Source: Desulfuromonadales bacterium (GTDB lineage: Bacteria; Desulfobacterota; Desulfuromonadia; Geobacterales; Pseudopelobacteraceae). Taken from it: 64,000 bases of DNA. The stretch lies in contig DUZS01000018.1 in NCBI GenBank assembly GCA_013349405.1, positions 1 to 64,000 on the forward strand, in the 5' to 3' direction. The stretch's first letter is position 1. Each line of letters starts with the position of its first letter. The notes under the pieces are model-generated. The model was not told where the DNA came from, did no database searches, and was given only the letters and a program-made list of their open reading frames with translations. Position numbers and translations under genes: made by a program. This document shows, in pieces, positions 17,659 to 44,522 of the stretch.

Positions 17659-17816
17659 GGTTCCAGTTCCGCCTTGACAGGGGCTCCACGTACAAAGGAG
17701 CTCCCGGTATCTGCCGCTCCTGCCCTCACCGGAAAAAATTCTGTCAGAAATAAAAAACTTGACTTCTGCTTGACTATTCGAGTAGGGTTTCTTCCACATT
17801 AGATTGATTGCAGCAG

Positions 17817-17901
17817 GATACACGATAATACTTAACCATCCGTGAGGGTGGGGCGGAAAGCCTACAGGGTCTCAACGAGATAGCCGGGTTGCCGAAATAT
17901 C
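17817..17901 (+). ncRNA. GEMM-I riboswitch aptamer 1 (GEMM-Ib/cGAMP-type likely)
   Basis: ggatacacgataatacttaaccatccgtgagggtggggcggaaagcctacagggtctcaacgagatagccgggttgccgaaatatc. Confidence 0.85.
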
Positions 17902-17930
17902 TGACAGATATACGGTGACCCGGTTTTTTT
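17884..17930 (+). terminator. expression-platform terminator of riboswitch 1
   Basis: CCGGGTtgCCGaaATATCtgacaGATATaCGGtgACCCGG TTTTTTT, overlapping the aptamer 3' strand. Confidence 0.8.
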
Positions 17931-17959
17931 GTGCCTTCTCCCGGTCTGTCGCTGCAATA

Positions 17960-18088
17960 GTAATTCCAATTCCAAATGAAGAGTGATATCAAGGCGGCGA
18001 GGATTGAGGCGACGAAGGCATACAAAAAGTATGTTGAGGAGCCGAAGACGAGCCAACGAAGAGAGCGCCTTGATTTAGGATTGGTATA
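17960..18088. repeat. MITE-like palindromic repeat, copy 2, between the tandem riboswitches
   Basis: attccaattccaaat...gatttaggattggtat termini; core GGCGGCGAGGATTGAGGCGACGAAGGCATACAAAAAGTATGTTGAGGAGCCGAAGACGAGCCAACGA. Confidence 0.75.
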
Positions 18089-18090
18089 TA

Positions 18091-18175
18091 GGTACACGAT
18101 AATACTAAACCATCTGCGAAGATGGGGCGGAAAGCCCACAGGGTCTCATCGAGACAGCCGGGTTGCCGAAATATC
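18091..18175 (+). ncRNA. GEMM-I riboswitch aptamer 2 (GEMM-Ib/cGAMP-type likely)
   Basis: ggtacacgataatactaaaccatctgcgaagatggggcggaaagcccacagggtctcatcgagacagccgggttgccgaaatatc. Confidence 0.88.
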
Positions 18176-18204
18176 CAACTGATATCCGGCAGCCCGGCTT
18201 TTTT
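18157..18204 (+). terminator. expression-platform terminator of riboswitch 2
   Basis: GCCGGGttGCCGaaATATCcaactGATATcCGGCaGCCCGGC TTTTTT. Confidence 0.82.
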
Positions 18205-18310
18205 ATTCCGGTCCCGGACCGGGGAGGTGATGCGGCATCAACAGAGCATAGAATATTGCCAACAACTAACGACGTGATTATAGAAATAACCCGTAGAAAG
18301 TTTGCACACA

Positions 18311-19540
18311 ATGGAGAACACCGCTATTAACAAATACATAAGTAAATTATTCTTCTGCATCGGTACCGCATCAATGATGCTCGCGCTGGCACTGGCACTG
18401 GGCGGTTGCGGCAGTTCGGGCGGAACCTCGGGAACAGCATCCGGTTCAACACCGGGCGTAAGCATCGGAACCGTCGCTAAAAGCGTCTCAAGCCCTTCCG
18501 GGCAACAGATCACAGTAAACAACGTCATCTTCACTACTGCACAGAGCAGTATTACCGTAAATGGTGACCCTGCTGCCGCTGCCGTCGTGAAACCGGGCAT
18601 GCAGGCGACAATTACCGGCTCAGTGGACGGCATGAACGGCTCGGCTGTCACTGTTGAAGTCGAGGGAGAACTGGAGGGAATGGTGGAACAGATCAACAGC
18701 GGCGCAGGAAGTATGGTCGTACTCGGCCAGACTGTGTTGGTAAACGCCCAGACTGTATTTGAAGGGACGAGCGGCCTCAGCTTACTCTCCGTAGGACAGA
18801 TGGTTGAAGTGCACGGTTTCCCTGACGCGACCGGTGTAATCGAGGCCACACGGGTAGAAGTAAAAATGTCCTCTCGACCGAACTACGTAACTGGCCCGAT
18901 CAGCAACCTCGATACCGTGGCGAAAACATTTACCATCCGTACGATCAGCGTTGACTACTCCGGCGCCAGATTGCCGCTTCAAACGCTCTCAAACGGCCAG
19001 ACGGTCAAAGTCAAGGGCGCCTATACCAACGGCGTGCTGACCGCAACAAGCATCAGGGCACACCATGTTCACCTGGACCATGGACACGCCGAACTTGAAG
19101 GACTCGTCACTGACTATGATGCCGCTGCCGGGACCTTCACCCTTCACGGCCAGCCGGTGCAACTCACGTCAACAACCAGCTACAGCCACGGTGCGGCAAG
19201 TGAAATTGCAAACGGAGTAAAAGTTGAAGTAAAAGGGGACGTAATTGACGGAGTTTTTGTAGCACGCAAGATTGACGTAGAAGGCGATCATGGCCTCCCG
19301 GTTCATCCCCCGATAACTCCGGTGACACCCCCGACACCGGTGACACTGCCTGGAAGAGCCGCCTATGACGCCAACTGCGCCGGCTGTCACATACTCGGAA
19401 ATTATGACATCAGCGGCTTTGCCCCGAATCTCTCCGGTAAAGGGAGTCTTGTCTCGGACAAAATTGTCGTCGGCCACAAGGGTATCAGCTTGAGCAGTCA
19501 ACTGCTCACCGCTCTGGCAGCCTTCGTTAACGCCAATTAG
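18311..19540 (+). CDS. lipoprotein with DUF5666-like beta repeats and C-terminal monoheme cytochrome c domain
   Basis: Lipobox ALGGCGSS; repeated GQxVxVxGxxxxGVxxAxxIxV units; C-terminal YDANCAGCHILG (CXXCH). Confidence 0.8.
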   Translation: MENTAINKYISKLFFCIGTASMMLALALALGGCGSSGGTSGTASGSTPGVSIGTVAKSVSSPSGQQITVNNVIFTTAQSSITVNGDPAAAAVVKPGMQATITGSVDGMNGSAVTVEVEGELEGMVEQINSGAGSMVVLGQTVLVNAQTVFEGTSGLSLLSVGQMVEVHGFPDATGVIEATRVEVKMSSRPNYVTGPISNLDTVAKTFTIRTISVDYSGARLPLQTLSNGQTVKVKGAYTNGVLTATSIRAHHVHLDHGHAELEGLVTDYDAAAGTFTLHGQPVQLTSTTSYSHGAASEIANGVKVEVKGDVIDGVFVARKIDVEGDHGLPVHPPITPVTPPTPVTLPGRAAYDANCAGCHILGNYDISGFAPNLSGKGSLVSDKIVVGHKGISLSSQLLTALAAFVNAN

Positions 19541-20814: not shown

Positions 20815-21188
20815 GGTTGAAGCAGTTCGTAAGCCGGGTTCTGTTCCCGGGTCGGGTTACCCCTTCCCGGGCAATGTCCATTCATCTGGGTATGCCGTTA
20901 CCGACACCCTCAAGCAACCAACCCGGGGGCACGAGCGGGCCGCTCTTAACGCCCCCCTATTTGGTCTTGCTCCTGACGGGGTTTACCTGGCATCCGACGT
21001 CACCGCCGAACCCGGTGAGCTCTTACCTCACCCTTTCACCCTTACCTGCCAAGGCAGGCGGACTTCTCTCTGTGGCACTTTTCCCTGGGGTCACCCCCGC
21101 TGGACGTTATCCAGCGTCACGCCCTATGGAGCCCGGACTTTCCTCCACCGGACGAACCGGCAGCGGACATCTGAACTACTTCAACCAA
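20815..21188 (-). ncRNA. rnpB: RNase P RNA, bacterial class A
   Basis: Minus strand GGAGGAAAGTCCGGGCTCC...AGAGAAGTCCGCC...GGTAAACCCC...AATAGGG...GAACAGAACCCGGCTTACGA conserved motifs. Confidence 0.93.
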
Positions 21189-44101: not shown

Positions 44102-44269
44102 CAAAGCCCTCCACAAATTACACCTTCTGACTTTTTAGATTCAAATCCCCTTATACCTTCAAGAGGGCAGCGGGGCAAGTTTAAATAGCTCAATGCTCCT
44201 TGACATGACGGAGGTGGCGTGGTATTTCAGCTACGCAATTACGCTGTTTGTTGTCTGACAATTGAATAA

Positions 44270-44456
44270 CAGATTATGGTGCCCGCAAGGGCTTGATAGG
44301 GAAGTGAGGTGTACTTCCGGTTTCATTTCGATATGGAATTGGCACGACTCCTCCGCGGACCCGCCGCTGTAAGCGAGGACAAAGGGCAATATGTCACTGG
44401 TTGAAAAAACCGGGAAGGCGCCTGGAGGAAGAATCGCGAGCCAGAAGACCTGCCAT
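44270..44456 (+). ncRNA. cobalamin (B12) riboswitch
   Basis: ggtgcccgcaagggcttgatagggaag...gccgctgtaagcgaggacaaagg...gtcactgg...gggaaggcgcc...gcgagccagaagacctgcc. Confidence 0.93.
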
Positions 44457-44522
44457 GATTTCAGCACTCAACTATTCCCCCTGGTAAGGGGAGAGTCACT
44501 CATTATCAGACTTTGAATACGA

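Follow-up and report, generated by a model that had tools for sequence, protein, structure and literature searches.

Why two nearly identical riboswitches, separated by a palindromic repeat, should stand before a single gene is the question raised by the leader of the DUF5666 lipoprotein gene at positions 18311–19540 (+ strand) of the window, the 64-kb stretch of DNA analysed here. The reading favoured, with a probability of about 0.87, is that this leader carries, one behind the other, two GEMM-Ib switches that respond independently to cGAMP and turn transcription ON, that the repeat is likely a passenger, and that the signal probably comes from a GacA-like Hypr GGDEF protein. The aptamers, the terminators, the shared pocket type, the repeat and the conservation on which this explanation builds were computed, and from there the ligand, the switching, the promoter and the cyclase activity are predicted.

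A cmscan search with the Rfam c-di-GMP-I model (RF01051) shows exactly two c-di-GMP-I/GEMM-I riboswitches in the whole window, at 17820–17896 (42.7 bits, E-value = 5e-5) and 18094–18170 (45.9 bits, E-value = 9e-6). Both scores are above the RF01051 gathering score of 35 bits, and the R1 scores are 102.5 and 107.8 bits, respectively. When the P1 helix is included, aptamer 1 extends from 17817 to 17901 and aptamer 2 from 18091 to 18175, both on the + strand. These are exactly the limits that a preliminary description of this DNA had given for two near-identical aptamers, and both aptamers hold up against the GEMM-I model in Infernal. Each aptamer with its terminator forms one copy of a 117-nt direct repeat; the copies share 85% identity and are 274 nt apart. 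The window also carries a cobalamin riboswitch at 44260–44471 (111 bits) and a class A RNase P RNA at 20815–21182 on the − strand (311 bits).

Across relatives, 93% of cells in the P2 and P3 helices are paired and 8 pairs are changed on both sides. The covariation score was reached by 0 of 500 shuffles, a test in which relatedness is lost in the shuffles and the structure tested came from the same family; the covariation is chiefly in P2. Aptamer 1 displays a U at position 17, where A, C and T are found in 104, 17 and 6 of 127 aptamers, respectively. This U17, at a place where A is usual, could alter the affinity of aptamer 1. A decayed copy is ruled out as an explanation of U17, since C or T at this position is also present in 22 other aptamers of the 127. 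Equilibrium folding of the entire leader partly disturbs aptamer 2, a result that need not apply to co-transcriptional folding.

The selectivity site is Rfam match position 11, which is equivalent to G20 of Vc2 and, in the structure of the cGAMP riboswitch, to A14, a correspondence derived here from helix positions. Both window aptamers have A, not G, at this position. Both also keep all the cGAMP contacts, i.e. G8, A9, A11, A12, A14, C15, G40, A41, A42 and C75 (list of contact bases from PMC6274999). Recognition of cGAMP is determined by an A at position 20/14, and A20G turns Gmet_0970 to c-di-GMP (PMC6456294); D. acetoxidans aptamers obey the same A/G ligand rule (PMC9481103). Both aptamers are likely of the cGAMP type (GEMM-Ib), and the same call in the preliminary description stands at the sequence level, with A at the selectivity position and every contact base kept. 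That the aptamers favour c-di-GMP even with an A at the selectivity position, or bind both ligands without preference, is improbable. GEMM-Ib members do vary in selectivity and a D. acetoxidans A-type aptamer kept most of its c-di-GMP binding (PMC9481103), but the scaffold and contact bases in the window are those of the selective Geobacter members and a Hypr-type cyclase candidate is encoded in the source genome.

This GacA-like candidate (L112:1468–2835, − strand) is a REC plus GGDEF protein that carries the motifs NDVHGHLIGS and GGDEY, with Ser at the purine-recognition (selectivity) residue. The best hit in the PDB is 6d9m, the Hypr domain of GacA, and the candidate probably makes the cGAMP signal to which the two window switches would respond. 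The source genome shows 22 GEMM-I matches, 15 of them A-type and 7 G-type by the selectivity position. Since the two types coexist, cGAMP and c-di-GMP are probably both in use in this genome. Another tandem pair of the same genome (G000:C1:201998–202218; L002/L012) has the GEMM-Ib scaffold with G at the selectivity position, and probably binds c-di-GMP.

Each window aptamer is followed by a terminator on the + strand, at 17882–17931 and 18156–18204. In both, the aptamer 3′ strand, GCCGGGTTGCCGA, forms the 5′ arm of a hairpin that is followed by a T run. The terminator 1 hairpin (17882–17925) has a predicted energy of −25.9 kcal/mol (z = −6.75) and the terminator 2 hairpin (18156–18199) of −30.2 kcal/mol (z = −7.0), and in each case 0 of 200 shuffles were as stable. 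Folding thus bears out the earlier proposal of one terminator per aptamer that sequesters the aptamer 3′ strand. In 30 tandem arrays, which hold 61 aptamers, pairing of 7 nt or more of the 3′ strand into the T-run hairpin that follows is seen for 56. Because the ligand-binding 3′ strand is also a terminator arm, aptamer and terminator are mutually exclusive, and the prediction for each unit is an ON switch acting on transcription. Such a terminator architecture is found in the cGAMP ON switch of pilM in G. metallireducens (PMC9262584), where the ligand-binding 3′ strand is likewise captured by the terminator and the two structures exclude each other. However, one switch is described for pilM and two in series are found in the window.

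Transcription would start 5′ of aptamer 1. A candidate promoter at 17759–17788 (+ strand; TTGACT, 18 nt, TAGGGT) is situated 28 nt 5′ of the aptamer 1 P1 strand; it has a weak −10, was not picked up by a consensus promoter scan and is proposed here as a promoter that is weak by consensus. Better copies are present in relatives (TTGACT-17-TAAACT in L055 and TTGACT-17-TATTAC in L056), at a nearly equal distance to the aptamer. At low cGAMP, the downstream strand would capture the aptamer 3′ strand and the terminator would form; polymerase would halt at terminator 1, and polymerase that leaked past it would halt at terminator 2. With cGAMP bound, P1 and P3 would retain the 3′ strand and polymerase would read through. 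Both aptamers would need to be occupied, i.e. the leader would act as an AND of a single ligand with itself.

Two switches in series would multiply the leak down and the fold-induction up, and would roughly double the half-maximal cGAMP with a slightly steeper response. In a simple series model of independent switches with 10% leak each, a single switch gives 10-fold induction and a pair 100-fold, with half-maximal ligand at ~2.1 K and an apparent Hill coefficient of 1.13. Independent switches in series give apparent Hill coefficients of about 1.1–1.2 in this type of model. By the model, the gain from doubling should mainly be low leak, or multiplied repression, rather than steepness. The steep control suggested in the preliminary description is thus retained in a weak form only, and multiplied repression is the larger effect.

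Most of the gap between the two switches consists of a 128-nt palindromic repeat at 17961–18088 (+ strand), which the preliminary description did not mention. The repeat family has 28 matches in the source genome, ~20 of them near full length, and matches are found in 35 of 39 genomes of the same genus (loci L024–L050). The copies have common inverted termini, with the consensus sequences TAATACCAATTCTAAATCAAG and TATTCCAATTCTAAATCAAG. The repeat is MITE-like, i.e. short, present in many copies and bounded by terminal inverted repeats. In this it resembles the prokaryotic MITEs and palindromic multicopy sequences of Geobacter (PMC2996986), which are also short palindromic elements with many intergenic copies. 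Matching TWA trinucleotides, a candidate target duplication, flank 15 of 20 copies vs. 9.5 expected (shuffle maximum 14, n = 100). A protein-coding frame in the repeat is ruled out, as the other copies lack the ATG found in the window copy.

Leaders without the repeat, in G036 and G010, show an aptamer spacing of 143–145 nt, and the window spacing of 274 nt, minus the repeat and one target copy, is ~148 nt. The repeat is most likely a passenger insertion. A promoter or processing site contributed by the repeat 3′ of terminator 1, which would leave aptamer 2 as the sole controller, is quite improbable. The repeat does sit exactly between terminator 1 and aptamer 2, and its RNA folds strongly (z = −5.5). 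However, no promoter-like match was recognised on the + strand of the repeat region by the consensus scan, a weak scan that failed to pick up the presumed real promoter as well; aptamer 2 shows the same local fold with the inserted repeat upstream of it; and aptamer 1 and terminator 1 are intact. Two working switches in series, with the repeat as a passenger, remain the preferred reading.

A different dispersed repeat is contained in the gaps of L065 and L064 (297 and 308 nt, the other longest in the set). This second repeat (L064:1062–1245; genus g12, homologous gene) has >20 matches per genome. A relationship to the window repeat is ruled out, as nothing is shared beyond 11 nt. Since the same gap holds different repeat families, it was invaded at least twice. 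The spacer between tandem riboswitches thus tolerates mobile elements, as the repeat insertion shows.

The regulated gene encodes a putative protein of 409 aa from its presumed start codon. The protein displays a lipobox (LGGC), DUF5666 in three stretches (Pfam, E-value = 1e-40) and a single CxxCH haem site near the C-terminal end, with weak cytochrome c matches below the Pfam cut-off. This agrees with its earlier naming as a DUF5666-cytochrome lipoprotein, the cytochrome c part being the weaker one. Cytochromes are classic targets of cGAMP riboswitches, and a DUF5666-cytochrome target is therefore not unusual.

Relatives of the gene are found in 17 other genomes among the 78 searched. In six of these (G036, G059, G066, G071, G054 and G064) the relative is preceded by a GEMM-I pair, all A-type, and in G010 by an A-type triplet (L056:946–1320). 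The G010 locus is also syntenic, with moaC directly upstream; moaC is two genes upstream in the window. The relative in G055 has one aptamer and that in G008 has none. In G051, the aptamer adjoining the gene is G-type and matches the c-di-GMP-I-GGC model RF03167 (L060:1260–1343), and an A-type aptamer is situated ~1.1 kb upstream. The G051 leader likely represents a ligand switch at the same gene. As G008, G055 and G051 show, members of this gene family can do without the doubled cGAMP arrangement. Among 96 leaders collected with the A-type aptamer model, 66 carry one aptamer, 29 carry two and one carries three. The DUF5666-cytochrome gene family appears to keep two or three cGAMP-type switches across the order, with exceptions. 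That two or three switches of the same type are kept despite large protein divergence fits selection for low leak. The DUF5666 cytochrome lipoprotein is thus an added conserved target in a likely cGAMP regulon of the Geobacter-related lineage.

Two-input control, as also suggested in the preliminary description, in which the aptamers would answer different ligands (cGAMP and c-di-GMP) and the gene would need both, is not borne out and is highly improbable, for although the A-type (15) and G-type (7) GEMM-I aptamers of the source genome make it likely that both signals are used, the two window aptamers share one pocket type, their contact bases being identical and the selectivity position A in both, each of the 5 tandem pairs of the source genome is single-type (4 A/A, 1 G/G), and the same holds for all 30 arrays of the wider tandem set, which is biased by its collection with the A-type model.

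Several tandem cGAMP riboswitches have been published for G. sulfurreducens, including omcAHG/GSU2885, where RNA at the second switch was undetectable after deletion of the cyclase gene gacA (PMC6456294). As in the window, two cGAMP-type aptamers stand in series before a cytochrome operon or gene. However, the window gene encodes a single-haem lipoprotein with DUF5666, and its two switches are separated by a dispersed repeat. In the pseudo-cooperative tandem c-di-GMP-I riboswitches (347 doublets and 12 triplets; PMC9481103), aptamers of the same class are likewise repeated and each has an expression platform to itself, but the window pocket is of the A-type (cGAMP), as read here from the sequence. 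The window pair is real and well conserved, and adds a new member to a kind that had been reported from Geobacter. The locus gains added interest from the repeat insertion and from a conserved Shine-Dalgarno (SD)-like motif.

This motif, GGRGGTG, is found in the gene family 3′ of the last terminator and ~80–150 nt upstream of the presumed start codon; in most relatives this codon has an SD of its own. In the window it reads GGGGAGGTG (18221–18229, + strand), just past terminator 2 and ~80 nt before the start codon. Of 10 leaders of the gene family, 9 have the motif, the L055 leader being scored by eye, as opposed to 3 of the 79 other GEMM-Ib leaders (Fisher p = 3e-9, a value that overstates independence, as the sequences are related). 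The bearers noted are the window, L055, L056, L058, L059 and L062–L065. A reversed control motif was found in none of the leaders. A motif general to GEMM leaders is ruled out by its presence in only the 3 of 79 others.

Stabilising SD-like motifs (STAB-SD) are known in Bacillus. It is doubtful that the motif here forms a second control or stabilising layer coupled to riboswitch read-through, e.g. as a ribosome standby site, an mRNA stabiliser or a leader peptide start. A second layer of the SD type was not found described for cGAMP riboswitches in the literature examined, and the role of the motif is a lead, not a finding. No ATG able to open a short leader open reading frame follows the motif in L058, L062, L063 and L064; such an ATG is present in L055, L056, L059 and the window. 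The possible window open reading frame, MRHQQSIEYCQQLTT, consists of 15 codons (18230–18277, + strand) and is situated directly after the SD-like motif.
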